Source of the DNA: Candidatus Omnitrophota bacterium
GTDB lineage: Bacteria; Omnitrophota; Gorgyraeia; Zapsychrales; Zapsychraceae
Direction of reading: 5' to 3'
DNA: 52,203 nt
NCBI GenBank assembly: GCA_015232535.1
Contig: JADFZM010000002.1
Coordinates: 1-52,203, forward strand
Part shown: positions 30,398 to 50,473 of the stretch, one piece after another
How the letters are laid out: every line of letters begins with the position of its first letter
Position numbering within the stretch: the stretch's first letter is position 1
Translations under genes and position numbers: made by a program
Notes under the pieces: generated by a model
What the model saw: only the letters and a program-made list of their open reading frames with translations
The model's database searches: none
What the model was told of the DNA's origin: nothing

Positions 30398-31132
30398 ATG
30401 ACCGGATCAAAAAATAAACTGGCATTAATCATCGGTGGAAGTCGTGGTATAGGGCGAGCCATTGTTTTACGTTTGGCGCAGGAGGGCTTTGATATCTGGT
30501 TTACCTGCCGTTCTAATATGGAGGCGGCCCAAAAAGTTCAAGCGGAGGTCGAAAAGATCGGCAGGGAGTGCAGGGTCTTTTCTTTTGATATCGCTGATTA
30601 TAACGCGGTCAAGCTGGCTTTGGAAAAACAAGTTGATACGCGCGTTCCAGATGCCGTTGTTTACAACGCGGGCATTTCAAAGGATAACCTTTTTGTTTTT
30701 ATGACGAGAGAGGAGTGGGATTCGGTTTTACATACCAATCTGGATGGATTTTATCATGTAATGCATACAGTAATTTTCCCTATGTTGCGTGAGAAGAGGG
30801 GCAGAATCGTGATTATTGCATCTACATCTGGGGAGATTGGGCAGGCCGGACAGGTCAACTATTCGGCGTCTAAAGCCGGATTAATAGGAGCTGCCAAGGC
30901 TCTGGCGCGAGAAGTAGCGCGTAAAAATATTTTTGTAAATGTTGTGTCTCCCGGGGTCATAGAAACAGAAATGACCAAGGATCTTCCAAAAGACAAAATC
31001 CTTCCGTTGATCCCTTTGCAGCGTTTTGGTTCAGCCGATGAAGTCGCATCCATTGTGGCTTTTTTGTGTACAGAAAAGCACATGTATATTCATGGGCAGG
31101 TAATTGGCGTCAACGGCGGCCTTGCCATCTAA
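30398..31132 (+). CDS. 3-oxoacyl-ACP reductase (FabG/ApeQ-like SDR)
   Basis: ALIIGGSRGIGRAIVLRLAQEG; NAGISKDNLFVFMTREEWDSVLHTNLDGFYHV; YSASKAGLIG; VSPGVIETEMT. Confidence 0.94.
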   Translation: MTGSKNKLALIIGGSRGIGRAIVLRLAQEGFDIWFTCRSNMEAAQKVQAEVEKIGRECRVFSFDIADYNAVKLALEKQVDTRVPDAVVYNAGISKDNLFVFMTREEWDSVLHTNLDGFYHVMHTVIFPMLREKRGRIVIIASTSGEIGQAGQVNYSASKAGLIGAAKALAREVARKNIFVNVVSPGVIETEMTKDLPKDKILPLIPLQRFGSADEVASIVAFLCTEKHMYIHGQVIGVNGGLAI

Positions 31133-31149
31133 CGAAAGCTTTAAACTCC

Positions 31150-32652
31150 ATGGAAAGATATAATTCAATAATTGTTGGGAGCGGAATCAGTGGATTAACT
31201 TTGGCTTTACTTTTAGCTGCTAACGGACGCAAGGTTCTGCTGCTTGAAAAGGCCCCAATCATCGGCGGATGTTTGTCGCGTTTTTATAAGAAGGGAGTTC
31301 CTTTTGATACGGGATTTCATTTTACCGGAGGATTTGTTAAAAACAGAATAATGGAAGATATGCTCAGAGTTTTAGGCATTCGCGACAGCATTCATCCCAT
31401 TCTTCTTGATAAGGAAAGATCTAACCGATTTATTTTTGAAAATGAAGGCCTAAGCCTTGAAATGCCTGCCGGCTTAGAACAATGCTGTGCTAAACTTGAG
31501 AATTATTTTCCTGCACAACGTGTTGCCATAAGAAATTATTTTGAAATGGTTGAGCGGGTTATTCAGTCGACCCCGTCATTTGATTTACGCAAAATCTCTT
31601 TTTCTCCCGAACCCATTGAAGAAGATTACATTAGCCTTCAAAAAGTTTTAGATAGTCTTACCCAAAACCAAACGCTTAAAGCTGCCTTATCGGTTTATTG
31701 TATGTGTTATGGTACTAAGCCTTCTGAGATATCTTTTGCTAATCATGCGCGAGTGTCTATTGGTTTTTATGATTGTTTAACGCGAATAAAAGACGGGGGA
31801 GAAGCCTTTATTCGGGCTTTTTCTCAAGCGTTCAAGAATTATCCGATTATGATCCGGTGCAATACAACCATTCAAGAGTGTCTAGATATTCACGATGGCA
31901 TTGTTGGCCGCGTCCTTCTTTCTGATGGCGAAGAAGTTGCTTTTGATGAATGCATTTTTACCATTCATCCATTTGAAGTTTTGAAAATCATTCCGAAACA
32001 GCATTTTTCTAAAGCATTTTGGGAAAGAGTAGAGTCCTTCGAGCCCTCCAATGGTTTCTTTTCGGTATTTGGGGCAATTGAAGGAGAAAAGGTAGCTGAT
32101 AATTTTGAACCCTCCATCGTGTCGTTATTACCGCATTCTGATATTAATATTTTATTAGACCCTAAGTACATTGGTCCTCAAGCTTTAGCGATCTTTCAAA
32201 GCTTAGAATGCGCTAAGGATAAAACTTTTCATGTTCTTAATGCTTTTGAGCCATCTTTTTTTGAGCAAGTTGCTCCTTGGTCTAACTCAAAAGTCGGCCA
32301 TCGTCCGCAAGGATATACGGATTATAAGAAACAGCGTGTTCAAAGTATTTGCAATCGGATTCAAGGATTCTTTCCTGAATATAAGGATTCATTTCGAATG
32401 TATGACGCTGCCAGCATGTTGACGTTCCGTGATTATCTGTTTTCGCCTGATGGCAGTGCTTATGGGATAAAACAAAAAGTCGGACAATTTAATCTTTTTG
32501 GAAAATTACCTTTACGTAATCTTTATACTGCTGGGCAGAGCGCGGTTCTTCCCGGGATATTGGGAGCCATGTTGTCTTCTTTTGTTATTGCCCGGGCTCT
32601 CGTTGATAAAGATGCGTACAACAATTTTATAAATAAAAGTTTATGTCCCTAA
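31150..32652 (+). CDS. CrtI/CrtISO/RetSat-like FAD-dependent oxidoreductase
   Basis: Start at ATG 31150. NSIIVGSGISGLTLALLLAANGRKVLLLEKAPIIGGCLSRFYKKGVPFDTGFHF; C-terminal LYTAGQSAVLPGILGAMLSSFVIARAL. Confidence 0.88.
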   Translation: MERYNSIIVGSGISGLTLALLLAANGRKVLLLEKAPIIGGCLSRFYKKGVPFDTGFHFTGGFVKNRIMEDMLRVLGIRDSIHPILLDKERSNRFIFENEGLSLEMPAGLEQCCAKLENYFPAQRVAIRNYFEMVERVIQSTPSFDLRKISFSPEPIEEDYISLQKVLDSLTQNQTLKAALSVYCMCYGTKPSEISFANHARVSIGFYDCLTRIKDGGEAFIRAFSQAFKNYPIMIRCNTTIQECLDIHDGIVGRVLLSDGEEVAFDECIFTIHPFEVLKIIPKQHFSKAFWERVESFEPSNGFFSVFGAIEGEKVADNFEPSIVSLLPHSDINILLDPKYIGPQALAIFQSLECAKDKTFHVLNAFEPSFFEQVAPWSNSKVGHRPQGYTDYKKQRVQSICNRIQGFFPEYKDSFRMYDAASMLTFRDYLFSPDGSAYGIKQKVGQFNLFGKLPLRNLYTAGQSAVLPGILGAMLSSFVIARALVDKDAYNNFINKSLCP

Positions 32653-33875
32653 AAAGAGTTGTTATCACAGGAATAGGTGCAGTATCGCCATTAGGAAGCG
32701 ATTCTCTTGAAATGTCGCAAGGGCTTGAGGCTTCTCTTAGCGCCGTGCAATATATGGAAGGCTGGGATACTTATAAAGGCTTGAGGTGTCTTGTAGCTGC
32801 GCCGGCTAAGGCTAAAGATGAACATCTAATCCCGCGACAGAGCCGCAGGTCCATGGGCTCTATGAGCATTTATTCTGTTCAGGCCGCGCAAGAGGCATTG
32901 AATGACAGCGCGCTTCCAACAGAAATATTAAAGACAGGCCGAGTAGGCTGTATTATCGGTTCCACCATGGGAGGCGCTAAAAGCATTAATGATGTTTATG
33001 AAAATATGGCATCGCAAAGAGATTTAACGCAATTGACCTCGATGAAATTCTTTCAGTGCATGTCTCATACAGCAGCGTTGAATGTTTCCCAATATTTGGG
33101 TATTAACGGCGTTGTTATGGCGACTTCGGCGGCCTGTGCTTCAGGGCTTCAGGCGATTGGGACGGCGTATGATCTTATCCGCTTAGGTTCCCAAGATGTA
33201 ATTTTGTGCGGCGGGGCGGAAGAGCTTCATCCTACTGTTACAGCATCATTCGATATTTTGTTTGCCACTTCAACGAAATATAATGATCGCCCTCAACTAA
33301 CACCACGTCCTTTCGATGCCAATCGTGATGGGCTGGTCTGCGGCGAAGGCGCAGGAATTATTGTGATAGAAAGCTATGAACACGCAATGGCTCGTAGCGC
33401 AAAAATTCATGCAGAGATTATTGGGTATCAAACTTGTGCTAGCGGGTTACATATCAGTCAGTCGAGCAAGGAGGCTTTGGCCTCTTCCATGCGAGGAGCA
33501 TTAGCCGCGGCACAGATAAATTCTAAGGATATTGATTATATTAATGCCCATGCGACGGCAACGCTACAAGGAGACAAGGAAGAGGCGGATGCTATTCGGG
33601 AAATATTTGGAGATAAGGTCCCTGTCTCTAGCCTTAAAGGATATATGGGGCATACCTTAGGTGCTTCAGGCGGCCTTGAATTGATTGCCAGTTTGTTTAT
33701 GATGCGTTCCGGTCGGATTTATCCGACGAAGAATTTAGAAAATGTAGCCGATGATTGCCAGGGTATTTGGCATGTGCAAAAGCCATTAAAGCGACCGCTA
33801 AATTTTATTTTAAAAAACGCATTCGCACTCGGCGGAATTAATGCGTCGATAGTATTGAAAAGGTTGTCTCAATAA
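32643..33875 (+). CDS. Beta-ketoacyl-ACP synthase (FabF-like), catalytically intact
   Basis: Cys in TSAACASGLQAIG; His in INAHATATLQGD and SLKGYMGHTLGASGG. Confidence 0.93.
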   Translation: MSLKRVVITGIGAVSPLGSDSLEMSQGLEASLSAVQYMEGWDTYKGLRCLVAAPAKAKDEHLIPRQSRRSMGSMSIYSVQAAQEALNDSALPTEILKTGRVGCIIGSTMGGAKSINDVYENMASQRDLTQLTSMKFFQCMSHTAALNVSQYLGINGVVMATSAACASGLQAIGTAYDLIRLGSQDVILCGGAEELHPTVTASFDILFATSTKYNDRPQLTPRPFDANRDGLVCGEGAGIIVIESYEHAMARSAKIHAEIIGYQTCASGLHISQSSKEALASSMRGALAAAQINSKDIDYINAHATATLQGDKEEADAIREIFGDKVPVSSLKGYMGHTLGASGGLELIASLFMMRSGRIYPTKNLENVADDCQGIWHVQKPLKRPLNFILKNAFALGGINASIVLKRLSQ

Positions 33876-33900: not shown

Positions 33901-34176
33901 ATGATGATCAAAGAAGAAGTCATAAAGAGAATTAATAAAGTCTTCGAGAAGGACTTTGAAATTGATCTGAAGAGGCTTAAGCCAGATGCGCAAATTTTTA
34001 ATGATTTAGGCCTCGATAGTTTGGATATTGTGGACCTGGTCGTGGCCCTGCAGAAAGAGTTCAGCGTTACTATCCGGGATGACGCGCGAGTTCGTAATAT
34101 CCGGACCCTTAATGACATTTATGATTTTATTCTTCTGCTGGGCGAAGAGAGAAAAAAGGAGAATATTAAGGAATAA
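33901..34176 (+). CDS. Acyl carrier protein
   Basis: DLGLDSLDIVDLVVALQKEF phosphopantetheine site. Confidence 0.93.
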   Translation: MMIKEEVIKRINKVFEKDFEIDLKRLKPDAQIFNDLGLDSLDIVDLVVALQKEFSVTIRDDARVRNIRTLNDIYDFILLLGEERKKENIKE

Positions 34177-34931
34177 TGTTGACGTTAAAAAAGTTAATCC
34201 TCAATACTGCTTTTTATCTTTTTTTCTTTTTGTTAACTATTCTTTATACCGTGGTTTTAACATTATTGATGATAGGGGTTAGAGTTCTTTCTTCTGATCA
34301 TGAGGTTAATAGGCAATTGCGTTTAGGCATTCGCTGGTATGGACGTATACTTATTTGGGTCTTGCCTCAGCCCTTTTTAAAGGTAAAATATACTAATAAA
34401 TCTCGTCAAGAAAATAAGGATTTACCTTGCATTGTCATTTGCAATCACCGGTCATCATCAGACCCATTTTTAATGGCTTGCCTATCATTTGACTTGATTC
34501 AGATCGTAAATAAATGGCCTTTTAGGATCCCGTTCTTAGGTTGGGTTGCGCGTTTGTCAGGATATTTGAGTGTGAATGAGATGTCGTTTGAGGAATTTAG
34601 ATATCGCTGTGGAAATATTTTAGATCAAGGCGTTTCTGTTGTGGCTTTTCCGGAAGGGACTCGCTCCGGATCTAGAGCAATGGGACAATTTCGCAGTGCG
34701 ACGTTTCGTATCGCGCTTGAGAAAAAAGTTCCGATTGTGCCGCTATGTATAACAGGCAATGAAGATAAACCCCTACGCGGTTCTTTTTGGCTGAATCCCG
34801 GCACGATCCTTATTCACAAATTGCCCCCAGTTCCATACGAAGAATTTAAGGATTTTAGTCCGTTTAAGCTTAAGAACTACATCCGAGATATTATTGAACG
34901 CGAAACAAAAGTAATGGATTCCCAGAAATGA
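34176..34931 (+). CDS. 1-acyl-glycerol-3-phosphate acyltransferase-like (PlsC family)
   Basis: IVICNHRSSSDPFLMACL (HxxxxD) and VVAFPEGTRSGS. Confidence 0.92.
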   Translation: MLTLKKLILNTAFYLFFFLLTILYTVVLTLLMIGVRVLSSDHEVNRQLRLGIRWYGRILIWVLPQPFLKVKYTNKSRQENKDLPCIVICNHRSSSDPFLMACLSFDLIQIVNKWPFRIPFLGWVARLSGYLSVNEMSFEEFRYRCGNILDQGVSVVAFPEGTRSGSRAMGQFRSATFRIALEKKVPIVPLCITGNEDKPLRGSFWLNPGTILIHKLPPVPYEEFKDFSPFKLKNYIRDIIERETKVMDSQK

Positions 34932-36223
34932 AATCATTTGAGCATTATCAAAAAAGTTCATTCTTAGAACTTAGTGCTAGGCAAAAAATACAAACTCAAT
35001 TATTACGTCAGCACATGACGTATTGTAATAAATCGTCTCCGTTTTATCGTCAACTTTTTAAAAAACATGGGGTGGTTCCCGAATCGGTCAATTTAGATAA
35101 TTTGCAGGATGTTCCATTTACGGATAAACATTGCTTGGAGCGTTCTAATAAATCATTTATAGCAGTTTCACAAGAAAGTGTAGCGGATATTGTCTTATCT
35201 AGCGGCACCACGGGCGCTCCGACAAAAATAGTTTATTCTCAAGGAGACCTGGAGCGATTAGCTTATAATGAACGTCAATCATTGGCGTCTTGCGGCCTAA
35301 ATGCTCACGATCGTGTTCTTTTAACCTGTACCATCGATCGTTGTTTTATTGCTGGATTGGCTTATTATTCCGGGGCAAGAGCTCTTGGGGCCGCATGCAT
35401 ACGCAATGGTTTAAATTCTCTGGAAAGCCACGCGGGAATTATCAAATTAATGAACCCGACTGTTATTGTTGGTGTCCCATCATTCTTGCGGAAACTGGGT
35501 AATTTTGTCTCGCATCAGAAGATTTCCGTCGCTAGCGTCAAGAAGCTTGTTTGCATCGGGGAGCCTTTAAGGAATATTGACATGCAAAAGTTGACACTTC
35601 TAGAAGATATCGAGAAAATCTGGAAAGCCAAAGCGTACTCAACTTATTCTTCCTCGGAAATAGTTACTACTTTTTGTGAATGCGAAAGACAAAATGGCGG
35701 GCATTTGCATCCGGAATTAGCAGTTGCTGAAATTGTGGATGAGAGAGGGCGCCGGGCTAGTGCAGGCGCTGCCGGAGAATTAGTGGTAACACCCTTAGGA
35801 ATTGAAGGAATGCCTTTAGTGCGTTTTCGCACAGGAGATATTAGCTTTATGATAGATGAGCCTTGCGCTTGTGGCCGTAAAAGTCCGCGCTTAGGGCCTA
35901 TCTTAGGGCGAAAAAAACAAATGCTTAAGATAAAAGGAACGACTGTTTATCCTTTGGCTGTTTTTTCTGCCCTTGATAATATCTCTGAGATAAGCGATTA
36001 TTTTATTACGGTATTTTCTCAGGATGCTCTTTCTGACCGATTGACAGTGACTGTTTCCTTGCGTTATTCCTGTTCAGTTCGTAGAATTAGTGAAGTTTTG
36101 GCTGCAAGTTTACGAGTAGCCCCGGAAGTTGTGATAGCTTCCGAAGAAGAAGTACGCCGTGTTGTTTATAATCCATCTTTACGGAAACCTGTTCGATTTT
36201 TTGATAGGAGAAAAAAGGTATGA
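34928..36223 (+). CDS. Phenylacetate-CoA ligase-like adenylate-forming enzyme (AMP-ligase)
   Basis: DIVLSSGTTGAPTKIVYSQGDL; MPLVRFRTGDISFM; CACGRKSPRLGPILGRKKQMLKIKGTTVYP. Confidence 0.88.
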   Translation: MKSFEHYQKSSFLELSARQKIQTQLLRQHMTYCNKSSPFYRQLFKKHGVVPESVNLDNLQDVPFTDKHCLERSNKSFIAVSQESVADIVLSSGTTGAPTKIVYSQGDLERLAYNERQSLASCGLNAHDRVLLTCTIDRCFIAGLAYYSGARALGAACIRNGLNSLESHAGIIKLMNPTVIVGVPSFLRKLGNFVSHQKISVASVKKLVCIGEPLRNIDMQKLTLLEDIEKIWKAKAYSTYSSSEIVTTFCECERQNGGHLHPELAVAEIVDERGRRASAGAAGELVVTPLGIEGMPLVRFRTGDISFMIDEPCACGRKSPRLGPILGRKKQMLKIKGTTVYPLAVFSALDNISEISDYFITVFSQDALSDRLTVTVSLRYSCSVRRISEVLAASLRVAPEVVIASEEEVRRVVYNPSLRKPVRFFDRRKKV

Positions 36224-37710
36224 GCACCTGTGGGAAAATCCCTAATCGATTCGAATTTTCTCAGCACGATATTGAAGAAGCGGTTCGCTCCGGTCAACTT
36301 TTATCTGCAGAGATAGAATTAAGCCTAAAATGCAATTTGCGCTGTCAATATTGCTATGTTTCTACGACAGCTGACCAGAACAATGAGCTTACGGGAAAAG
36401 AAATCCGCGATGTAATTCTTCAAGCGCATGATTTAGGTGCGCGTAAGATTATTATTCTTGGCGGAGAGCCATTAATTTATCCGCGAATTATTGAAAAAAT
36501 AGAATTCATTCGCGCTCATGGAATGCAGGTAGAATTATTTACTAATGGTCTTATGGTAACGCCTGCTATGGCGCGTCGATTATTTGAGCTTGGTGTAAAT
36601 GTTGTAATAAAAGTTAATTCTTTTAAAGATGACGTTCAAGATAAAATTGTTGGTATGCCGGGGGCTTCCAAAAAGATGAGGGCAGCGCTGGTGAACCTTA
36701 AGGGAGCAGGATACCCTTATGGAGCCGGATTCTTAGCCGTGAGCACAATTATTTGCCGGGAAAATTTTTCTGAACTTATAGATTTATGGGTTTGGATTCG
36801 AGACCAGGGAATTCTGCCTTATTTTGAAATCTTAACCCCTCAAGGAAGGGCTTCAGAGAATGATTGGCTTAATGTCGGGGCTGCCGATCTCGAAGATTTA
36901 TTTTATAAAATAAGTGAGATAGACCGAACACGTTATAACCAAATCTGGGATCCTCAGCCGCCTCTTGTCGGAGGGAAATGCTTGCGCCATCGTTTTTCTT
37001 GTTTAATCAATGCCCAAGGCTTTGTTATGCCGTGTGTCGGGGTAAACATTCCAATCGGAAATATTAGGGAGAAAAAACTCAAGGACATCCTAAGAGAAAG
37101 CGAGATTGTCCAAGATCTTAGATATTATCACGATAAAATTAAAGGACCTTGCGGCAAGTGCGACAAAGCCGATGATTGTTATGGTTGCCGAGGGGCTGCT
37201 TATCAATTGACTGGTGATTATTTAGCTTCGGACCCTTTATGTTGGAAGAATTTATCGCTTTCTGAAGATATTGCAAAGCTCCCTATTTTAGTTAATGAAT
37301 TTATTCCCCACGGAAAGCCCATGTGTTTGGTTGATCGCTTGATAAAGCAAGGGGAACGAAGCGCCGAAGTCGAGACCACAATAAGAAGAGATATGCCTTT
37401 TGTGGACGAAAATGGTTTATTAGAAGAGGTTGGATATTTAGAAATGATTGCCCAGGCCACTGCAGCTATGAGAGGGTTTAAGCAGTATGGGATAACGAGT
37501 AATAAGCAAGAGGGTTTTCTTTCAGGGGCAAAGGATTTTGAGATTTTTGAACGCGCACGCGTAGGAGATGTTCTCGTTACGTCTGTATTTAAATATGCCA
37601 AATTTGAGGATATTGGTGTCATTAAGGGAACTATCCACCGCGGATCTTCTTTGCTAGCGCAGGGTGAGATAAAAGTTTGGCAGAAGTCAGCCAAGGAGAA
37701 AATAGCATGA
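36220..37710 (+). CDS. Fusion protein: radical SAM/SPASM domain plus C-terminal hotdog 3-hydroxyacyl-ACP dehydratase (ApeI/ApeP-like)
   Basis: N-term LSLKCNLRCQYCYVST; SPASM-like CLRHRFSCLINAQGFVMPCVGV..CGKCDKADDCYGCRGAAYQ; C-term FIPHGKPMCLVDRLIKQG...EEVGYLEMIAQATAAMRGF hotdog signature, all one uninterrupted ORF. Confidence 0.9.
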   Translation: MSTCGKIPNRFEFSQHDIEEAVRSGQLLSAEIELSLKCNLRCQYCYVSTTADQNNELTGKEIRDVILQAHDLGARKIIILGGEPLIYPRIIEKIEFIRAHGMQVELFTNGLMVTPAMARRLFELGVNVVIKVNSFKDDVQDKIVGMPGASKKMRAALVNLKGAGYPYGAGFLAVSTIICRENFSELIDLWVWIRDQGILPYFEILTPQGRASENDWLNVGAADLEDLFYKISEIDRTRYNQIWDPQPPLVGGKCLRHRFSCLINAQGFVMPCVGVNIPIGNIREKKLKDILRESEIVQDLRYYHDKIKGPCGKCDKADDCYGCRGAAYQLTGDYLASDPLCWKNLSLSEDIAKLPILVNEFIPHGKPMCLVDRLIKQGERSAEVETTIRRDMPFVDENGLLEEVGYLEMIAQATAAMRGFKQYGITSNKQEGFLSGAKDFEIFERARVGDVLVTSVFKYAKFEDIGVIKGTIHRGSSLLAQGEIKVWQKSAKEKIA

Positions 37711-38360
37711 TTAAAATATTCGTAACACTTTTAATATTCTTTCTTGGAAATGTTGTTCAATGTCAAGCCCAAAACTCCGATGAAGTAAAGGAGGTGCTTA
37801 CAAATATTACAAGCCAAATGGCGAATCTCAAGACCGTTCAAGCCGATTTCACTCAAGAAAAGAAGATGGCCGTATTTACTTCACCGATAATTTTGCGTGG
37901 AACATTGCTATGGGAAAAACCTGATTCCTTTGCTTGGCGAATTGTTTCTCCGATTCAGTATATAATTGTCATGCGGCAAGGAATCGCCCGACAATGGGAG
38001 GGGGAGCATAATACTATCCAAGAATTTCAAATGAGCTCCAATCCTGTCATGCGCGTAGCTTCTTCGCAATTGCAGAAATGGTTTGGCGGAAATTATCAGA
38101 AGCTTGCCACGGAATATGATGTTTCTTTGGCTGGCCGTCAGCCGTTAATTTTGGCTTGTGTGCCACATCAGGATAGCCCGGAATCCGGCGTGATTGCACG
38201 AATCTCGATACAGTTTCGAGAAGATTTGCGTTATATCGAACGAATTACAATTGAAGAAGTATCCGGAGATATAACAAATATCAAATTCGAAAATACACAT
38301 TTTAATTTGCCAATTTCAGAAGATAGTTGGCGTATAGGTTTGGTGAGCCCACATGTTTGA
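37707..38360 (+). CDS. LolA-like outer-membrane lipoprotein carrier protein (ApeL-like)
   Basis: Start at ATG 37707. Signal peptide, then LKTVQADFTQEKKMAVFTSPIILRGTLLWEKPDSFAWRI. Confidence 0.88.
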   Translation: MIKIFVTLLIFFLGNVVQCQAQNSDEVKEVLTNITSQMANLKTVQADFTQEKKMAVFTSPIILRGTLLWEKPDSFAWRIVSPIQYIIVMRQGIARQWEGEHNTIQEFQMSSNPVMRVASSQLQKWFGGNYQKLATEYDVSLAGRQPLILACVPHQDSPESGVIARISIQFREDLRYIERITIEEVSGDITNIKFENTHFNLPISEDSWRIGLVSPHV

Positions 38361-40725
38361 GGCCTGTTTTGAAAAAGTATTTTTGTTTTTTCAGCGGTTT
38401 AAAAGAACTGTTTTAATAATTTTGTGCTCGGCTATAGCCCTTTTTGCAATAGCAGCAACATGCATCCACTTTGATAATGATATTGTGAGCATGCTGCCTT
38501 CTGACCCCAAACTTCGACGAGATTTTGATCTTGTTCGGGGAAGTGCGTTTGCCGGTAAAGTTGTTCTTTCTTTTGAATTAAAATCTCCTGACAGATCTTT
38601 GGATGATTTGGTCCGCTATGTTGATACGGTTGTCCAGCGTCTTCCGGGGCCACTTGTAAACAAAGTTATTAAAGGGCCGGACCTTTCTCCGGATGAGCTG
38701 GTGAAGTTTGTTCAAATCGGCCCTCGCTTGATCGGTGAAAAAAGTTTAGAGGCTTTTTCCGGGCGAACATCGCCGAGTGCCATCGATGAAAGCCTGCGTT
38801 CAGTCCGTTCACGTTTGATCTCTTTTCAAGGGATGTTTATTAGCGGCATTGTGCAGGCTGATCCTCTTGGAATATTTTCGCAGGAGTTAACGGCTCTACA
38901 ACAACTAGCGGCTACTTTTGGACGTAATGTCACTTTTTACAATGACCACTTTGCTACGCAAGACGGTAAGCATCTGATGCTTATTCTTGAGACGCCAGTT
39001 CAGATTACAGACGCAGAGCGTTCAAAGGAATTAATATCTTATATTCAGGCATGCCTCAAAGATATTCCGTCTTATGCTCAGGCGGATATTATCGCCGGGC
39101 ACACGCATACAGTGGCTAATGAGTCTTTGATCAAGAGCGACATTGCTCGAACAGTAACGGTCGCGACGATTGCCTATTTGCTCGTTTTAATATGTTTCTT
39201 CAGGGATATGCGCGCGGCGATATTTTTTTTAATTCCTGCGTGTTCCGTTTTGGTTGCTTTGGTTTGTTCGGGGCTGATATTTGGCCGTATTTCGGCGTTT
39301 ATTGTAGCTTTGGCATCAGTCATTATCGGCATTTCAGATGATTACGGGATCCTTGTTTATACTGCTATTCGTACGGCTGGACGTCGGGATGTGGTTTCTT
39401 GCATGGCACGACCCATTGTCTTGGCAGCCTTATTCACGAGCGGGATATTTTTTGTATTCTTCTTTTCCAGTATCCCCGGATATCATCAACTTGCTTTTTT
39501 AACTATCATCAGCATTTGGCTGTGTGTTTTATTTGTTTTATTGATATTTCCTCATCTTGTTACGACGTCAGCGCTTCGTCTTCCCCGTGGCGTGGGGGAA
39601 GGCCCGACAAGCCCCAAAAAAGATAGGCAAAAGATTGTGGCTTGGATCATTCTTATCGTGATTTTATGCGTCGGTGCGCAACGTATGACTTTTAGTAGCG
39701 ATATTTCAACGTTAGACGGCGTTGATGCCAAGACCCGTGCCGGAGAGGAGAAATTCGAGGAGGTTTGGTTGGGACGATATAAACAAGGGATATTCGTTGT
39801 GACTGCTCCGACACTTGAAGAAGCACTTACGGTCAATCGAAGCGTTTATAATGATTCGGCTTCTTTTTCTAAACAGATTACCAGTATCGCGCCATTTATG
39901 TTGCCTGAGCAAGAACAGAAGAAAAATATTGCGGCTTGGCGGGTTTTTTGGCAAACAAAGAAAGGGCAGGATTTAAGAGATTCCGTTCAAGTAAGCGCTA
40001 TGCAAAATGGATTTTCACCCGATGCTTTTGCCTCATTTCTAGACTTAACCCAGCGCGATTCTTTTCCGAAGTTTGAGGACATTTCTTTCTTAAAACAAAT
40101 GTCAGAGCGATTTATTTCATCCCAAAAGGGTTTGGTTCGCGTATTAACGTTTTTTCCGGAAGAACCCGGCTATACAGTCCATTTTAATCGGTTGGCACAT
40201 AAATATCCCGGGTCATTTATTTTTTCACGAACAGAGTTTTCCCGGCGATTTAATTCAAGTATTAATCAAGAAGCGTTACGGCTGGCCGGGTATGCTGGAT
40301 TATTTTTGTGTTTTGTGGCGGCATTCTTTTTGCGCAGAATGCGGTTAATTTTAGCTGTTTTATCAGCTGCGGTTACGTGTATATTAGCTATAGCCGGTGT
40401 CTATGGATTCTTGGGGAAGCCGTTAACCGCTCCGGCCCTTGTGGCGATGATGATCGCTGTAGGCCTTTCGATAGATTATGGTGTATTTTTATTGTATTCT
40501 TTACAAAATAAGATCGATACGGGAACGGCCAAAGCTGTCAGTATTTCTGCTGCCACAACATTAACCGGTGCGCTTTCTTTGTTGGCAGCACATCATCCGG
40601 CGCTTTTTTCAATAGGTCTTTCTTTAAGCGTGGGTTTAGGCGTCGGATGGTTGTGTGCACAAATAATTATGCCGGCTTTATACAGACTTTATTGTTCGAA
40701 TGCTTGTGAGGCCAAGAATGAATAA
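38353..40725 (+). CDS. MMPL/RND-family exporter (ApeM-like)
   Basis: 790 aa with two TM blocks: AFIVALASVIIGISDDYGILVYTAI and TAPALVAMMIAVGLSIDYGVFLLYSL. Confidence 0.92.
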   Translation: MFEACFEKVFLFFQRFKRTVLIILCSAIALFAIAATCIHFDNDIVSMLPSDPKLRRDFDLVRGSAFAGKVVLSFELKSPDRSLDDLVRYVDTVVQRLPGPLVNKVIKGPDLSPDELVKFVQIGPRLIGEKSLEAFSGRTSPSAIDESLRSVRSRLISFQGMFISGIVQADPLGIFSQELTALQQLAATFGRNVTFYNDHFATQDGKHLMLILETPVQITDAERSKELISYIQACLKDIPSYAQADIIAGHTHTVANESLIKSDIARTVTVATIAYLLVLICFFRDMRAAIFFLIPACSVLVALVCSGLIFGRISAFIVALASVIIGISDDYGILVYTAIRTAGRRDVVSCMARPIVLAALFTSGIFFVFFFSSIPGYHQLAFLTIISIWLCVLFVLLIFPHLVTTSALRLPRGVGEGPTSPKKDRQKIVAWIILIVILCVGAQRMTFSSDISTLDGVDAKTRAGEEKFEEVWLGRYKQGIFVVTAPTLEEALTVNRSVYNDSASFSKQITSIAPFMLPEQEQKKNIAAWRVFWQTKKGQDLRDSVQVSAMQNGFSPDAFASFLDLTQRDSFPKFEDISFLKQMSERFISSQKGLVRVLTFFPEEPGYTVHFNRLAHKYPGSFIFSRTEFSRRFNSSINQEALRLAGYAGLFLCFVAAFFLRRMRLILAVLSAAVTCILAIAGVYGFLGKPLTAPALVAMMIAVGLSIDYGVFLLYSLQNKIDTGTAKAVSISAATTLTGALSLLAAHHPALFSIGLSLSVGLGVGWLCAQIIMPALYRLYCSNACEAKNE

Positions 40726-41383
40726 GAAGTTGTTTATAAGCACGATAAGTCTAGTTATTTTACTAATGGGTTGCGCTCACCTTCCCATAAGAAGTATATC
40801 CAGACAAGAAACGCAGGTAGTTTTAGACGATTTTCAAGTACGGCTGGGGGATAAATATGAAATTCTTAGTTCGGTTGTATTCAAGTATAAGTTTTTTACA
40901 TTATCGAGCTTAGGATTAACCTCTATCGACCTACCTAAGGACTATTTGGCAGTTGCTGGAATTACTCCGGCAGGTATCACTTTGTTTAAAATTGTTTCCG
41001 AGAAAGGGAAAATCATTCATTCGTTTGTTATCCCGGAATTAGAGAAACGTGGCGATGTTGCCAAAGCTGTGTCCGGAAATATTCGGGATATTTATTTTGA
41101 TTTAACTCCTGGCCAGCTTATATCCATGGTTTCCAAAGGTGATAAATTATATTTGAAAACCTTAGTTTCTGACGGGGCGCAGAATGAATATGTTTTTTCT
41201 GAGAAGGATAGAACGCTATTGGAAAAACGCCTTTACAAAAATGGCAAGCTTTCTTGGAACATATACTACAAAAATTGGTTTGCTGATTCTTCTGGTAAAA
41301 TTCATCCAAAAGATATTCGTTTATTGCATAGGGAGTATAAGTATCAGTTATTATTAAATCTCAAAGAGGCGAAGCCTCTATAG
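40718..41383 (+). CDS. DUF3261-like lipoprotein (ApeN-like)
   Basis: Start at ATG 40718. Lipobox LVILLMGCAH; position directly after LolA-like and MMPL genes as in aryl-polyene clusters. Confidence 0.68.
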   Translation: MNKKLFISTISLVILLMGCAHLPIRSISRQETQVVLDDFQVRLGDKYEILSSVVFKYKFFTLSSLGLTSIDLPKDYLAVAGITPAGITLFKIVSEKGKIIHSFVIPELEKRGDVAKAVSGNIRDIYFDLTPGQLISMVSKGDKLYLKTLVSDGAQNEYVFSEKDRTLLEKRLYKNGKLSWNIYYKNWFADSSGKIHPKDIRLLHREYKYQLLLNLKEAKPL

Positions 41384-41398
41384 GCCCAAGGTTAAATT

Positions 41399-41773
41399 AT
41401 GTCTATATTATACAAAGAGATCAAAGAACTATTTAAGCAAGTCCATTGTCACAAGGATGGAAAAATAACTGCCGAGATAACTTTCCCCAAAAAGTTTACA
41501 GGGTTTAAGGGGCATTTCCCAAAGAACCCGGTCGTTCCCGGAGTATGCGAAATTATGAGCGTAATTGTGTTGTTAGAGCTAGCTTTTAAACAAAAAGCAA
41601 AATTAAAGACAATTAATTTGGCAAAATTTTTGGCGCCCGTTACTTGTCAGGAAAAAATAAACGTTGAGCTTCAGCGTGAAAATAAGAGCGGTGTCTTGGA
41701 ACGCGTTAAAGCGGTATTTATGTCAAAGAAAAGAAAAGTTGCCGAAATTCGAATCGAGGTTAATTATGAATGA
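41399..41773 (+). CDS. FabZ/ApeI-like 3-hydroxyacyl-ACP dehydratase (hotdog)
   Basis: FKGHFPKNPVVPGVCEIMSVIVLLELAF catalytic motif. Confidence 0.85.
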   Translation: MSILYKEIKELFKQVHCHKDGKITAEITFPKKFTGFKGHFPKNPVVPGVCEIMSVIVLLELAFKQKAKLKTINLAKFLAPVTCQEKINVELQRENKSGVLERVKAVFMSKKRKVAEIRIEVNYE

Positions 41774-42269
41774 GCCTGTTTCTAAATCAACCCGTCGTAG
41801 CAAAGGATCATATTTTAATTCTCCAATAAACGTTTTGCCTGCGCTTAGCGCACAGGTCCGTTTGCGCGTAGCCTTCAGTGATGTTGACCCTATGGCTGTC
41901 GTCTGGCATGGGCGCTATGGACAGTATTGCGAAAAGGCTTATGCGGAACTGACACGCAGTTGTGGGATTTCATATCATGATTTTTTCCAAGCACGGCTTC
42001 GGGCGCCGATTGTTCAAGCCCATATGGACTACTATGAACCGTTATTGTTGGAAGAAGAATTCACTGTAACTGCCAATTTAATATGGTGCGAAGGGGCGCG
42101 AATGAATGTTGAATATGTTCTGGCTAAGACTGAAGGATCAATTGCGGCAACAGGATATACTGTACAGATGTTTACCGAACATACGGGGATACCATTGTTA
42201 ACAATTCCGCCGCTCATTGAAAAGTTACGTCAGCGTTGGCTAAAAGGAGAGTTTAAGTGCCTCCAATAA
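41766..42269 (+). CDS. 4HBT-type acyl-CoA/ACP thioesterase (ApeK-like)
   Basis: Start at ATG 41766. VAFSDVDPMAVVWHGRYGQYCEKAYAELTR motif. Confidence 0.87.
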   Translation: MNEPVSKSTRRSKGSYFNSPINVLPALSAQVRLRVAFSDVDPMAVVWHGRYGQYCEKAYAELTRSCGISYHDFFQARLRAPIVQAHMDYYEPLLLEEEFTVTANLIWCEGARMNVEYVLAKTEGSIAATGYTVQMFTEHTGIPLLTIPPLIEKLRQRWLKGEFKCLQ

Positions 42270-43387
42270 AAACTGTAGTCACAGCCTGTGATTTGGTAAC
42301 TGCCTATGGGGAGGGCGCTTTGTTTTGTTGGAATGGTATATTATCCTCTAAAAGCGCCATCGGCAAAGCGGAGCGGTTTTCTACGGCTTCATTTCAGAGC
42401 AGTAATGCAGCTACCGTGGCAGGGGTTAAATATTTAGGCGAGGAGTCTCTTGTGATTCAAATGTTTCTTTTGCTCTTTAATAGCAATAAGGCATTAATCC
42501 CTCACGATGCCCTGCTTGTTCTTGCTACTACTACGGGAGAAATAGATATATTAGAAAAGCAGGTTTTAGAAGGGGCTGGCGATGAGAAGGAGAGTAGGCT
42601 TGGTGTTCTATTGGAGAAAGTAAAGGCGCTTACCAAAGTTAAGGGAGAGGGCACGATTATTTCCAGCGCTTGTACCTCATCGATTGCTGCCCTTGGTTTT
42701 GCTTCAAGCCTGATTCAAAGCGGAAAACATGATTGTGTGTTAGTAGTTGCCGCTGACGCGGTGACGGAGTTTGTTTTTTCTGGATTCTCATCGCTTATGG
42801 CGCTTGACCCTGATAAGGCAAAACCATTTGATAAAAATAGGGCTGGTTTAAGCCTGGGCGAAGGCGCGGGATTTGTTTTACTCATGAGCCAATCGCGGGC
42901 ACAGCGGGAAGGCAGGACAACCTTAGGAGAAATAGCTGGCTGGGGAGTAGCAGGTGACGCCAATCATATGACGGGGCCATTGCGCGATGGCAGCGGTTTG
43001 AAGCTGGCAATACAAAAGGCCTTGCGCAGTGCCGAGTTATCCAGCGATGATGTGGGATGCATATCCAGCCATGGCACAGGGACAGTATACAATGATTCAA
43101 TGGAGATGAAGGCCTATAAGAGTGTTTTCGAGAATCGAGAGGTACCTCTTTACTCAATAAAAGGAGCCGTCGGGCACACCATGGGAGCATCCGGCTTAAT
43201 CGAAACTGTGATTGCTCTTCGGGTTTTAGAAGAAAATATTATTCCTCCCACGGTGGGATTAGCTGATGTTGATCCTGAGGCAAAAGATTGGGTTTCATTG
43301 GAAAAACGTACTTTAGAAAAGCGCGCTATCTTGCTTAACAACGCAGGATTCGGCGGAGTAAACGCGGCGCTGTTATTAAAACAATAA
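42257..43387 (+). CDS. Beta-ketoacyl-ACP synthase, catalytically intact
   Basis: GTG start; Cys in TIISSACTSSIAALG; ISSHGTGTVYNDSMEMKA; SIKGAVGHTMGASGLIE. Confidence 0.9.
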   Translation: MPPIKTVVTACDLVTAYGEGALFCWNGILSSKSAIGKAERFSTASFQSSNAATVAGVKYLGEESLVIQMFLLLFNSNKALIPHDALLVLATTTGEIDILEKQVLEGAGDEKESRLGVLLEKVKALTKVKGEGTIISSACTSSIAALGFASSLIQSGKHDCVLVVAADAVTEFVFSGFSSLMALDPDKAKPFDKNRAGLSLGEGAGFVLLMSQSRAQREGRTTLGEIAGWGVAGDANHMTGPLRDGSGLKLAIQKALRSAELSSDDVGCISSHGTGTVYNDSMEMKAYKSVFENREVPLYSIKGAVGHTMGASGLIETVIALRVLEENIIPPTVGLADVDPEAKDWVSLEKRTLEKRAILLNNAGFGGVNAALLLKQ

Positions 43388-44874: not shown

Positions 44875-45429
44875 ATGATAAAAGGACACGGTTGGATAAA
44901 AGAGGGGCAATGCGGCTGTAGCCAGAAAGGCCTTTTGTGGCAGTATACCGATCTGCGGTCATTATGCGCCGAGCTGCTTGAATGTGCCGTACTTGCTTAT
45001 CCTGTAGAAAATTTTGCCAGGTTTGATGCCGCTTCGCGTCTCGTTGCTATATCAGTGGCTTTGGCTTTAAATGACGCTAGTATCCCTTATTCCAAAGGGA
45101 AGAAACAGGATATTGGAATACTTGGCACGAATACTGACGGAGCGCTGGATTCAAATCTCTCCTACTTTCGAGATTATGTGGCAGCGGGAAGAAAACTTGG
45201 GCGGGGAAACTTTTTTATCTATACTTTGGCATCAAGCCCGTTGGCAGAATCGGCAATCCATTTCGGGTTGCAGGGGCCGGCATTTTATATGCGGAATTTG
45301 GAAAATCCGGAAGAAAATTTATTAGCCCAGGGTGAATTGATGGTACGAAATAAAGCAGCCCAAACTATATTGGCGGTTTCTTTTGGAACAAAAGAGGCTG
45401 CCTGTAAATGTATTCAAGAAACAATATGA
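44875..45429 (+). CDS. Short ketosynthase N-terminal-fold protein lacking the nucleophilic Cys
   Basis: 184 aa; FARFDAASRLVAISVALALNDASI..IGILGTNTDGALDSNLSYF and LASSPLAESAIHFGLQGPAFYM resemble the KS N-terminal half; no TACASG-type motif. Confidence 0.65.
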   Translation: MIKGHGWIKEGQCGCSQKGLLWQYTDLRSLCAELLECAVLAYPVENFARFDAASRLVAISVALALNDASIPYSKGKKQDIGILGTNTDGALDSNLSYFRDYVAAGRKLGRGNFFIYTLASSPLAESAIHFGLQGPAFYMRNLENPEENLLAQGELMVRNKAAQTILAVSFGTKEAACKCIQETI

Positions 45430-46688
45430 AGGTAAAACTTATATATCCCAAATGGCCTAAACTTGCCTTTCAGCCTGAATTTAATTTGCCGCCTCATGGG
45501 CCTATCTGTTTCGCGGCTGCCTTGCCGCGGGACATTGACATTGTCTTTTGTGACGAGAACGTGGAAGATTTAACGATCGATCGGGACGAAGATCTGGTTT
45601 TTATTTCATGCATGTTGACTTGTCAGATCGCTCGCGGCTGGGAAATTGCTGACCAATACCGTGCTATTGGCAAGAAAGTTATTTTTGGCGGCATTGCAGT
45701 TATGTTACATTACGAAGAAACGTTGCCTCATGCGGACGCTGTTTTCTTAGGGGAAGCCGAAGGACACATTGGGAAAGTATTTCAAGATTTTGAGCGCGGC
45801 GCATTGAAGAAGATTTACAATTTTATGAATGATTACCCTGACACCGCATTGATTGGATCTGCCAGAAGAGATATCTTAAAACACGAGCTATATAATTTTC
45901 GTGGCGTGCAAATGGTGGACCTGGTTCATGCTTCGAGGGGATGTAAGTTTAATTGTTTTCCCTGCTGCACCCCTTTTTTAGGCGGAAGGAAATTTCGCCC
46001 TCGCCCAATTGATAAAGTTGTTGAAGAATTAAGAAGTATTCCTAACAATCGTCTCTTTTTGGTTGATAATTCATTGGCGCAAGATGATCAATGGGAAAAG
46101 GATCTTTTTCAAGCGATGATACCCTTGAAAAAGAAATGGGTGTCACATCCGATTAAAGATGACGATGAGATCCTAGATTTGGCAGTTAAGGCTGGATGTT
46201 GGTATGTATATCAGGCTATTTTTGATACATCAGATTATATAAGGCGGCGCGTAAAACGTCTTAAAGAAAGGGGAATCGGTGTTGAAGGGACAATTATTTT
46301 AGGAACTGACGATCATGATGAGGATTATATAAAGAGGCTCGTTGATTTTCTTCTGGATATCGATCTTGATTTGGCGGAATTTACTATTTTAACTCCATTT
46401 CCTCATTCTCCGATTCGTTCAAAGCTGGAAAAAGAGAATCGGATTATTCATAATGACTGGTCTCGGTATACCGCCGGAGAAGTTGTTTTTAAACCTGCGA
46501 AGATGACCGAAGAGGCTCTATCGAAAATGTATGAATACGCTTGGAAAACTTTTTATGCTAGCTGTTGTAAAGAGGTTAAGATGGCAAAACTTTATTTAAG
46601 TATTATGCAGCGGGAGAAACAGGACGGAACTTATCAACATGTGCGCTTACGTAATTCTCGAGGATGGGAGTCACCTGTTAAAAGATGA
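45408..46688 (+). CDS. B12-binding-like / radical SAM protein
   Basis: VHASRGCKFNCFPCC cluster motif; N-terminal KLIYPKW...NLPPHGPICFAAAL...KVIFGGIAVML. Confidence 0.9.
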   Translation: MYSRNNMKVKLIYPKWPKLAFQPEFNLPPHGPICFAAALPRDIDIVFCDENVEDLTIDRDEDLVFISCMLTCQIARGWEIADQYRAIGKKVIFGGIAVMLHYEETLPHADAVFLGEAEGHIGKVFQDFERGALKKIYNFMNDYPDTALIGSARRDILKHELYNFRGVQMVDLVHASRGCKFNCFPCCTPFLGGRKFRPRPIDKVVEELRSIPNNRLFLVDNSLAQDDQWEKDLFQAMIPLKKKWVSHPIKDDDEILDLAVKAGCWYVYQAIFDTSDYIRRRVKRLKERGIGVEGTIILGTDDHDEDYIKRLVDFLLDIDLDLAEFTILTPFPHSPIRSKLEKENRIIHNDWSRYTAGEVVFKPAKMTEEALSKMYEYAWKTFYASCCKEVKMAKLYLSIMQREKQDGTYQHVRLRNSRGWESPVKR

Positions 46689-48061
46689 AAATTGTTCTTA
46701 TTTCTGCTAATACCGCCCAAACACCTTATCCGGTGTATCCTCTTGGCATGGGAATTGTTGCCAAGGCTCTCCTGGACGCAGGGCACCAGGTCGTGCAATT
46801 CGATTTTCTTCATTCCGGCCAGTCGTTTGAGAAATTAACTCAAGTTTTACTATCACAGATGCCGGATCTTGTTGGGATATCTATCCGTAATATTGATAAT
46901 GTGAATTTGGCCAGTGAACAGCATTATATAGGCACCGTTCGCCAGATTGTCCTAGCGGTACGTTCTTCAGTAAAAGTACCGATTGTTTTAGGCGGTGCCG
47001 GTTTTTCCATTATGCCGGAAACTATTCTTGATGCTGTCGGAGCAGATTATGGGATTGTCGGAGAATCTGAGTCCGCGGTTGTTGATTTCGTGGCGGACAT
47101 AGAGGGTGGGAAACGTCCTGATAGATGTATTCGAGCTCATAATTTAGTCGCACCTAAGAACATTGGCAGCGCTCAGTATGATTCGGATATCATAAAATTT
47201 TATCTTAAATATGGCAATATGGTTGGCATGCAGACAAAGCGCGGATGCATTCATAAATGTGTTTATTGCACATATCCGCTACTTGAAGGGAGAATTTTCC
47301 GGCCCCGTCCAGCTGTCGATGTTGTGGACGACATTGAAGTATTGATTAAAGACCATCATGCCGGGTATATTGTTTTTACTGATTCTATATTTAATGACGA
47401 CCAAGGGCTTTTTTTGAATGTTTTACATGAAATGAAACGTCGTAGGTTATCGGTGCCATGGACCGGATTTATAAAGCCAGGCAATATTCTTGAAGAGCAT
47501 GTGCTTTTGATGAAAGAAACTGGTCTTAAGGCGGTCGAAATAGGTTCGGATGCGGCATCAGATATTGCGTTAAAAGGGATTGGAAAAGATTTTCTTTTTA
47601 AGGATATCATATCGGCTAATGATATTTTTGTCAGAAACGGTGTAGCCACAGCACATTTTTTTATGTTTGGCGGCCCCGGGGAAACGAAAGATTCCGTGAT
47701 GGAAGGAATCGAAAATATTATTGCGCTTCCGGGGACAGTTTCTTTTATGTTCATGGGGATTCGTATTTTGCCGGAAACTCCTTTGGAAAAAATTGCGTTA
47801 AGGGACGGGGTAATTGAGCCGGGACGGGACTTGTTAGAATCCGTTTATTATATTTCTCCGGCTCTTGACCGACAATGGCTTGAGAAGACCATGCTAGAGG
47901 GTTTTAAAGACCATCGATGTTGTTTCTTTCCGGCGGATAAATTTGAATCAAGCATAAAATTTCTTCATCAGATGGGATATTCGGGGTCTTTGTGGGAAAT
48001 GTTGTCACCGAACAAAATGCGAAGATCGCAAAGATCGATTCATCCTATGCAAAAAGGATAG
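46685..48061 (+). CDS. B12-binding / radical SAM protein
   Basis: MQTKRGCIHKCVYCTYP; N-terminal YPVYPLGMGIVAKALLDAGHQVVQFDF and PIVLGGAGFSIMPE. Confidence 0.92.
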   Translation: MKIVLISANTAQTPYPVYPLGMGIVAKALLDAGHQVVQFDFLHSGQSFEKLTQVLLSQMPDLVGISIRNIDNVNLASEQHYIGTVRQIVLAVRSSVKVPIVLGGAGFSIMPETILDAVGADYGIVGESESAVVDFVADIEGGKRPDRCIRAHNLVAPKNIGSAQYDSDIIKFYLKYGNMVGMQTKRGCIHKCVYCTYPLLEGRIFRPRPAVDVVDDIEVLIKDHHAGYIVFTDSIFNDDQGLFLNVLHEMKRRRLSVPWTGFIKPGNILEEHVLLMKETGLKAVEIGSDAASDIALKGIGKDFLFKDIISANDIFVRNGVATAHFFMFGGPGETKDSVMEGIENIIALPGTVSFMFMGIRILPETPLEKIALRDGVIEPGRDLLESVYYISPALDRQWLEKTMLEGFKDHRCCFFPADKFESSIKFLHQMGYSGSLWEMLSPNKMRRSQRSIHPMQKG

Positions 48062-48074
48062 ATAATTTATAAAA

Positions 48075-49274
48075 ATGATTACAGAAGATTCAAAAAAAGC
48101 GAATATTCCTTTAGATTTTATATGGTGCGTTATCCCGGTTTATAATAACGCTGCCACGGTATATAAAGTTGCTGTCGGTTGCCGAAAGCGCCTTCATAAT
48201 GTTCTGGTTGTTGATGACGGCTCAACAGATACAAATGTGCCTGAGTTGTTTGCCCAAACGGACATTCATGTTTTGCGGCATGATACTAATCGCGGCAAAG
48301 GCGCGGCATTGATCACGGCTCTGAATTATATTCATGCTCACAGCGGAATGTTTATGATCACAATTGATGCGGATGGCCAACATTACCCTGAAGATATACC
48401 TTCTTTTATAGAAAATTTGCATGAGTCAACAATCCTTATTGGTAGTCGCGACTTTACAGTAGTCAATGTTCCTGGCACAAGTAAGTTCGGGCGAAAATTC
48501 TCAAACTTTTGGCTTCATATAGAAACGGGAGCGGAGGTTGCTGATACGCAAAGTGGTTTTCGTGCTTATCCGGTAGGATATTTAAAAAAATTGATATTTT
48601 CTACGAGTTATTATGATTGGGAAGTTGAGGTCCTGGCGCGTTGTGTGTGGGCGGGGCTTACAATCAAGTCTATACCAATAAATGTTTTTTATCTTCCTGG
48701 AAGAGCTCGAATTTCTCATTTTCGCCCTTTCCTTGACAATTTACGTATAACGCTATTACATTGTCGATTGATCGGACGAATCCTTTTGCCTATACCGCAT
48801 AAACAGCTTGTGCCAAAAACGAAAAAGAATGAAATTAATATGCAATTGTTCAAGGACCCAAGACATTTCTTCCAGGGGCTTTTGGCGGAGCATGCCACGC
48901 CAGTTGGGCTTGCGGCATCGGCGTTTGTTGGTATTTTTTTAGGCGTATTACCGCTATTATCGGTGCATATGGTGGTTATTCTTTATGTGGTTAGCCGGCT
49001 TCATTTAAACAAAGTAATGGCACTTGCCATTCAAAATATTTGTATGCCGCCATTTGTTCCGGTAGTTTGTATTGAGATTGGCCATTATTTGCTCTATCGT
49101 GAGTGGATTACTGAAGTATCATTACGCGTGATCTTTTGGCAGTTTAAAGATAGAATTTGGGAATGGCTGGTCGGTTCTTTAGTTGTAGCCCCGCTTTTGG
49201 CGATTTTTATCGCAATTATTGTATTTATTATTTCATCGCGTTTTCATAAGGAGCGCTTAGCCCGTGCAACCTAA
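48075..49274 (+). CDS. Glycosyltransferase family 2 with C-terminal DUF2062
   Basis: WCVIPVYNNAATVYKVAVGCRKRLHNVLVVDDGSTD; C-term GLAASAFVGIFLGVLPLLSVHMVVILYVVSRLHLNKVMALAIQNICMPPFVPV. Confidence 0.9.
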   Translation: MITEDSKKANIPLDFIWCVIPVYNNAATVYKVAVGCRKRLHNVLVVDDGSTDTNVPELFAQTDIHVLRHDTNRGKGAALITALNYIHAHSGMFMITIDADGQHYPEDIPSFIENLHESTILIGSRDFTVVNVPGTSKFGRKFSNFWLHIETGAEVADTQSGFRAYPVGYLKKLIFSTSYYDWEVEVLARCVWAGLTIKSIPINVFYLPGRARISHFRPFLDNLRITLLHCRLIGRILLPIPHKQLVPKTKKNEINMQLFKDPRHFFQGLLAEHATPVGLAASAFVGIFLGVLPLLSVHMVVILYVVSRLHLNKVMALAIQNICMPPFVPVVCIEIGHYLLYREWITEVSLRVIFWQFKDRIWEWLVGSLVVAPLLAIFIAIIVFIISSRFHKERLARAT

Positions 49275-50181: not shown

Positions 50182-50194
50182 TAACGGAGGATAT

Positions 50195-50473
50195 ATGGAT
50201 CAAAAAGAACAAGAGCTGTCAGAAATTCGAAAGAAATTAAAAGAATTAATTGTTACAGGCCTTTCATTGGAAGGGGTTGACCCGAAACTTATCAAAGACG
50301 ACGAAATTCTCTTCGGCGAAGGGCTGGGTTTAGATTCTCTAGACGCTGTTGAAATTGTTGTTCTTTTGCAGCGCAATTGGGGATTGGAAGTAAAGGATAT
50401 GAAAGAAGGGCAGAAGGCCTTTTCCTCCATCAATACCCTAGCGAATTATGTTTATGATCACATTAAGAAATAA
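50195..50473 (+). CDS. Acyl carrier protein
   Basis: Start at ATG 50195 after GGAGG. GEGLGLDSLDAVEIVVLLQRNWGL. Confidence 0.93.
   Translation: MDQKEQELSEIRKKLKELIVTGLSLEGVDPKLIKDDEILFGEGLGLDSLDAVEIVVLLQRNWGLEVKDMKEGQKAFSSINTLANYVYDHIKK

Follow-up and report, generated by a model that had tools for sequence, protein, structure and literature searches.

The fusion gene and its surroundings

In the window, by which we mean the whole stretch of 52,203 nucleotides analyzed here, we found a single gene that encodes a radical SAM (rSAM)/SPASM enzyme joined in frame to a hotdog domain (Table 1). Its start codon overlaps the stop codon of the upstream ligase gene (ATGA), and its TGA overlaps an ATG of the next gene. 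Because of these overlaps with both neighbors, we place the fusion gene in a tight operon.

Judging by gene content, the surroundings correspond to a conserved aryl-polyene/flexirubin-like type II PKS cluster of about 17 genes, and the window carries the gene set of an aryl polyene cluster, with ketosynthases (KS), a KR, a split dehydratase, acyl carrier proteins (ACPs), a ligase, a thioesterase and export genes. All of these, together with LolA, the RND exporter, the DUF3261-like lipoprotein and the acyltransferases, are shared with the E. coli aryl polyene (PMC8253772) and flexirubin (NCBIfam FlxB, FlxY, LolA2) clusters. What sets the window apart from them is a CrtD-like oxidoreductase plus three radical SAM enzymes, and no known aryl-starter gene was found. 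By analogy to the aryl polyene clusters (PMC8253772), the LolA and MMPL proteins, the acyltransferases and the glycosyltransferase (GT) suggest that the product is an exported outer-membrane lipid. We also considered the celluxanthene aryl polyenes of anaerobes as a match and discarded them: they are made by a type I PKS, and the word 'radical' is absent from the text of the celluxanthene paper.

The usual gene order, found in most fusion loci, is KR, CrtD-like, KS, ACP, PlsC, FlxY-like ligase and rSAM-ApeP, followed by LolA, MMPL, lipoprotein, ApeI-like, thioesterase, KS, KSN, two B12-binding radical SAM proteins (B12-rSAM) and GT, with KS1, ACP1 and PlsC as constant neighbors of the fusion gene. 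Relatives of KSN sit in fused, class II (see below) and anammox clusters, in the latter at the kuste3345 position. As for the part of the cluster beyond the window, locus L160 (G000:C133:50001-59368) contains the KS-like/chain-length-factor-like gene, a third ACP-like protein, a second AMP-forming ligase, a 442-aa protein without an assigned family, lipoproteins and a protein weakly similar to CrtD-type oxidoreductases.

Table 1. Genes and features of the cluster, with positions in the window
Feature	Positions	Strand	Remarks
KR (FabG/FlxB-like)	30398..31132	+	FabG NF004200 over cut-off; FlxB 284.7 bits (cut-off 340)
CrtD/CRTISO-like FAD oxidoreductase	31066..32652	+	True start probably inside the ORF
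Ketosynthase KS1	32643..33875	+	
Acyl carrier protein ACP1	33901..34176	+	
PlsC-type acyltransferase	34176..34931	+	
FlxY-like AMP-forming acyl-CoA ligase	34928..36223	+	NF053551 446.5 bits (cut-off 520)
rSAM/SPASM-ApeP-like fusion protein	36220..37710	+	496 aa, ATG to TGA, ORF intact
CNLRCQYC, CxxxCxxC ligands of the SAM-binding 4Fe-4S cluster	36331..36354	+	Residues 38-45
SPASM region	36979..37242	+	Pfam SPASM; two auxiliary clusters expected
ApeP-like hotdog domain, one dehydratase half	37282..37689	+	Residues 355-490; 6qsr_B by sequence and fold
Codon of E408, predicted acidic half of composite dehydratase active site	37441..37443	+	Glu of FabZ/ApeP E-x-x-AQ motif
LolA-like carrier (LolA2_flexi-like)	37707..38360	+	
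MMPL/RND-type exporter	38353..40725	+	
DUF3261-like lipoprotein, weak	40700..41383	+	18.5 bits (cut-off 22.3)
ApeI-like hotdog protein, predicted partner	41399..41773	+	Pfam ApeI-like 26.8 bits (cut-off 28.5), FabA 25.3 (cut-off 23); 6qsr_A; AF2 FabZ fold
4HBT thioesterase	41796..42269	+	
Ketosynthase KS2	42257..43387	+	
KSN, KS-N-like, 184 aa, conserved	44875..45429	+	Syntenic in related loci; no Pfam/NCBIfam match
B12-binding radical SAM protein 1	45408..46688	+	
B12-binding radical SAM protein 2	46685..48061	+	NCBIfam TIGR04072 rSAM_ladder_B12, 600 bits (cut-off 360)
Glycosyltransferase-like protein	48075..49274	+	From reading of sequence, position and conservation
LpxL-type acyltransferase	49264..50181	+	
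Acyl carrier protein ACP2	50126..50473	+	Similarity to related ACPs
Ketosynthase KS3	50481..51647	+	
KS-like/chain-length-factor-like protein	51641..52201	+	Extends beyond window end

The fusion is conserved in many bacteria

A query with the single protein against genome contigs gave no match, and an alignment query on named genomes gave 399 relatives. The best 80 of these 399 all turned out to be full-length or nearly full-length fusions without a stop, with identities of 46-71% to the window protein. Conservation counts below refer to the alignment of the window protein with these 80 relatives (81 sequences). Most carriers are represented by metagenomes, of sediment, groundwater and other origin, and together they span at least ten named phyla, among them Nitrospirota (21), Omnitrophota (16), Thermodesulfobacteriota, Myxococcota, Kiritimatiellota, Verrucomicrobiota, Lentisphaerota and Planctomycetota, with single fusion records from Pseudomonadota, Bacteroidota and Deferribacterota; these ranks are approximate, since the record titles are MAG labels. 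Ten other Omnitrophota genomes have the fusion; in one, a TAA lies within the frame that matched.

The source is a draft genome of 210 contigs and 83% completeness. Hence, one could argue that an assembly or frameshift error joined two genes, the doubt raised in the preliminary description of this DNA. The in-frame fusion at 80 further loci in so many phyla, together with an alignment that is gap-free at the junction between the rSAM and hotdog parts, makes such an artefact vanishingly improbable, and we ruled it out: the single-ORF fusion proposed in that description is real. Its remark that no described enzyme has this architecture holds insofar as we found no description of an rSAM-ApeP fusion in the literature searched (papers outside subscription journals), but the architecture itself is widespread and not limited to the source genome.

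The radical SAM/SPASM domain

The AF2 model of the fusion (mean pLDDT 90.8, pTM 0.89) shows two well-ordered domains. By its motifs and Pfam matches, the protein belongs to the radical SAM/SPASM enzymes, and SAM cleavage is predicted. Pfam Radical_SAM covers residues 33-188 (83 bits) and SPASM residues 254-315 (34.5 bits), both over the cut-off, in agreement with the rSAM motif and the Cys-rich SPASM-like region pointed out previously. Besides CxxxCxxC, the rSAM part has a GGE motif. Within CxxxCxxC, C42 and C45 are invariant (81/81) and C38 is present in 80/81, the remaining sequence having a gap. The SPASM cysteines 254, 272, 311, 314, 320, 323 and 341 are likewise found in 81/81, and C261 in 78/81.

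By sequence and fold, this part is nearest to the peptide and tetrapyrrole enzymes AhbD, NirJ, PqqE and SkfB. It stays far short of all NCBIfam equivalog cut-offs, for example those of AhbD (150 of 500 bits), NirJ2 (142 of 500) and PqqE (98 of 381). The window protein shares CxxxCxxC, the SPASM Cys pattern and the fold with AhbD, NirJ, PqqE, SkfB and SuiB, and differs from them in having a hotdog extension and no peptide or tetrapyrrole context.

The hotdog domain contains the Glu half of a dehydratase active site

In FabZ-type enzymes, the active site combines a His (GHFP) from one protomer with a Glu from the other. Regarding the C-terminal ~140 residues of the fusion, no Pfam family scored over its cut-off, the ApeP-like family PF22817 giving 11.7 bits (cut-off 27). 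Sequence comparison (E 7e-6) and fold comparison (TM 0.80 on the target) agree on the best hotdog match, PDB 6qsr_B, which is ApeP from Xenorhabdus doucetiae. We therefore call the domain ApeP-like on the basis of these matches, and not a member of PF22817. E408 (in YLEMIAQ), Q412 and A415 are present in 81/81 sequences, and the catalytic GHF His is missing from the fused domain. The PH of FIPHGKPM was rejected as the catalytic His, because this position holds His in 42/81 sequences and Gln in 39/81; it aligns with the non-catalytic 'LPHR' position of FabZ. A complete FabZ/FabA-like dehydratase in one polypeptide is likewise ruled out by the absence of the GHF His. Hence, what had been described as a complete dehydratase-like domain contains only the Glu, the other half being encoded by a separate gene, and of the two intact active sites that were to be checked on an AlphaFold model, the two ordered domains are there but the hotdog has half a site.

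That separate gene is the ApeI-like one. Its product has the catalytic His in GHFPKNPVVPG and a Met at the Glu position, which in its relatives is mostly Leu, Gln or Thr, and Glu in three. We detected the partner gene in 50 of the 57 fusion loci with enough flank, and did not detect it in mini-clusters without the hotdog domain. From these sequences, we infer that the fused hotdog and the ApeI-like protein form a heterodimer with one composite active site. There is also just one active site in the characterized ApeI/ApeP pair, and A. baumannii has an ApeH-ApeI fusion (PMC8041823), so there is a precedent for the fusion of a half-dehydratase. In both the X. doucetiae complex (PDB 6qsr) and the A. 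baumannii ApeH-ApeI/ApeP system the His lies on ApeI and the Glu on ApeP, as predicted for the window pair. In contrast to ApeH-ApeI, the window has the ApeP half in the fusion, and its fusion partner is a radical SAM enzyme.

Relatives without the hotdog domain and the link to ladderane clusters

Unfused homologs of the rSAM part occur in three settings. In class II clusters (Omnitrophota L038-L040 and Brocadiia genomes), the rSAM stands alone beside a FlxY-like ligase and a B12-rSAM, with a FabZ/FabA-type protein. The second setting is that of anammox clusters. The gene order of L155 equals that from kuste3352 to kuste3335 (gene list in Javidpour 2016), including the 66-aa kuste3350, and on these grounds the L155 rSAM adjoining the ligase is the counterpart of Kuste3343, which Rattray 2009 pairs with DP1855 (PMC2649909). 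The rSAM part of the window protein is 43-46% identical to the unfused anammox-cluster rSAM at this position. The Kuste3343/DP1855 clusters of anammox bacteria and Desulfotalea (PMC2649909, PMC4790861) share with the window the homologous rSAM/SPASM beside a CoA ligase, as well as KS, KR, ACP, a CrtD-like oxidoreductase, an MMPL-like protein and B12-rSAM; the TIGR04072 B12-rSAM, a trait of ladderane clusters, is also found in the window. The window differs from the anammox clusters in two respects, as their rSAM (~370-380 aa) has no hotdog and their dehydratase is an ordinary FabZ-type protein. By sequence, then, the rSAM domain is a relative of a published ladderane candidate, without a tie to ladderanes.

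HZS_alpha had no match in the source genome. It is an imperfect anammox marker, as the Pfam domain also matches a Kiritimatiellota genome, and so the anammox identity of the clusters rests mainly on gene order. Pontiellaceae B12227 (G393), which is not an anammox bacterium, gave eight HZS_alpha matches over the cut-off, and the domain is thus not specific to hydrazine synthase.

The third setting comprises small Desulfobacterota clusters (L187, L188, L189, L190 and L195) with KS, a PlsC-like gene and an unfused rSAM (51-55% identical). Most of them also have an ACP, several have a B12-rSAM, and no dehydratase or ligase was detected in the 14-20 kb covered. In a tree with the unfused Brocadiia and Omnitrophota relatives, the fused proteins formed one clade (100/99). 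When Desulfobacterota were added, seven unfused rSAMs fell among the fused proteins, and a single fused clade was not rejected by the topology test (AU p 0.27). According to this result, the fusion likely arose once, and later losses of the hotdog, for example in Desulfobacterota, are possible.

Two loci separate the domains in other ways. At L140:1453-2847 (G466:C11), a homologous rSAM/SPASM has an ACP domain (PP-binding, 39 bits against a cut-off of 20.8) as its fusion partner in place of the hotdog, which indicates an ACP-bound substrate, in a single MAG. At L193:9384-10517 (G1018:C22), CxxxCxxC and ~130 barrel residues are lost and the ApeP half is intact. The L193 cluster is complete except for the ligase gene, and this ApeP half is the sole match of its kind in that genome, which suggests, again from a single MAG, that the dehydratase half is needed alone. 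L193 has lost both ligase and rSAM core, and we considered an obligate partnership of FlxY and rSAM, which was ruled out because 7 of the 69 loci whose rSAM is intact show no ligase nearby. The domains are therefore separable in evolution: anammox, class II and small Desulfobacterota clusters have an rSAM that lacks the hotdog, and L193 has the hotdog with a ruined rSAM. Since evolution uncouples them, the fusion appears helpful, not necessary. The earlier proposal of radical chemistry coupled to dehydration finds no support here if it means a single catalytic cycle.

A model for the fusion protein

We propose that the fusion protein serves, with its two domains, in an anaerobic lipid pathway that runs on a type II PKS of the aryl-polyene/flexirubin-like kind. 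The C-terminal hotdog would be one subunit of a heterodimeric 3-hydroxyacyl-ACP dehydratase and would supply Glu408, with the ApeI-like protein supplying the His of a single composite active site. The N-terminal rSAM/SPASM domain would be a second, independent active site that abstracts hydrogen from an ACP-tethered chain (or from the starter), using the SPASM clusters as electron acceptor, and the oxidation may dehydrogenate the substrate, form a C-C bond or result in decarboxylation. The fusion would nucleate the dehydratase heterodimer beside the rSAM domain and bring intermediates held on ACP from the dehydratase over to the rSAM active site. We propose oxidation of an ACP-bound chain because two-electron oxidations are the usual reactions of SPASM enzymes whose auxiliary clusters are conserved, and are carried out by PqqE, SuiB (SPASM) and BtrN (twitch), with AuxI serving as the electron acceptor in SuiB (PMC9012708).

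We regard this whole picture, with an ApeP-ApeI heterodimer and rSAM oxidation of an ACP-bound chain docked by the fusion, as fairly probable. Its computed elements are the fusion, the two half-sites and the gene for the partner, along with the cluster and the homology to Kuste3343-type rSAM; that the rSAM substrate is an ACP-bound chain is what we infer. An ACP-bound acyl substrate had been suggested before, and the suggestion has gained from the L140 fusion and the constant KS, ACP and acyltransferase neighbors. KS and PlsC-like genes also lie beside the rSAM in the small clusters without hotdog. Against the picture stand the proximity of the rSAM part to peptide and tetrapyrrole enzymes, the L140 case being one MAG, the separability of the two domains in evolution, and the ApeP similarity falling below the Pfam cut-off.

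Alternatively, the rSAM could make or modify a starter acid, as the free acid or once the FlxY-like ligase next to it has loaded it, with the fusion reflecting mere co-expression and no channelling. This is possible, if somewhat unlikely. The ligase adjoins the rSAM in fused and unfused clusters, anammox included, and L193 lacks both. Besides, aromatic ammonia-lyase (PF00221; TAL) and chorismate lyase (PF04345; UbiC) were absent from 10 carrier genomes (the source genome being 83% complete), so the usual aryl starters seem unavailable and the starter may not be the usual aryl acid. However, the loci with an intact rSAM-ApeP and no ligase nearby, the small Desulfobacterota clusters, which combine rSAM with KS and PlsC-like genes without a ligase, and the carrier-bound substrate indicated by L140 all speak against it.

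It is quite unlikely that the rSAM closes rings on an ACP-bound polyene through C-C bonds, as proposed for ladderanes, to give a cyclized polyene lipid. The identity to the rSAM that takes the place of Kuste3343 in the ladderane candidate cluster, the TIGR04072 protein in the window and the C-C bonds formed by the SPASM enzymes PqqE and SuiB (PMC9012708) fit such a role, but many of the bacteria that have this family show no sign of anammox, and Desulfotalea, which has the Kuste3343 counterpart DP1855, produced linear polyunsaturated hydrocarbons and no ladderanes (PMC2649909).

Implications for the family

Our preferred model, dehydration by an ApeP-ApeI pair next to rSAM oxidation of an ACP-bound chain, bears on ladderane biosynthesis, which is unsolved; expressed in E. 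coli, ladderane radical SAM candidates did not yield the product (PMC4790861). The existence of relatives joined to a dehydratase subunit or, once, to an ACP suggests that the family acts on ACP-bound chains. The rSAM-ApeP and rSAM-ACP fusions are thus natural constructs for probing the substrates of ladderane-type rSAM enzymes. We think it unlikely that the dehydratase-rSAM module modifies each ACP-bound intermediate during polyene assembly, by a radical oxidation that might form rings; if it did, type II PKS tailoring would gain a new class, and the substrate type of Kuste3343 would be revealed. The rSAM-ApeP architecture marks a widespread polyene-type lipid pathway.
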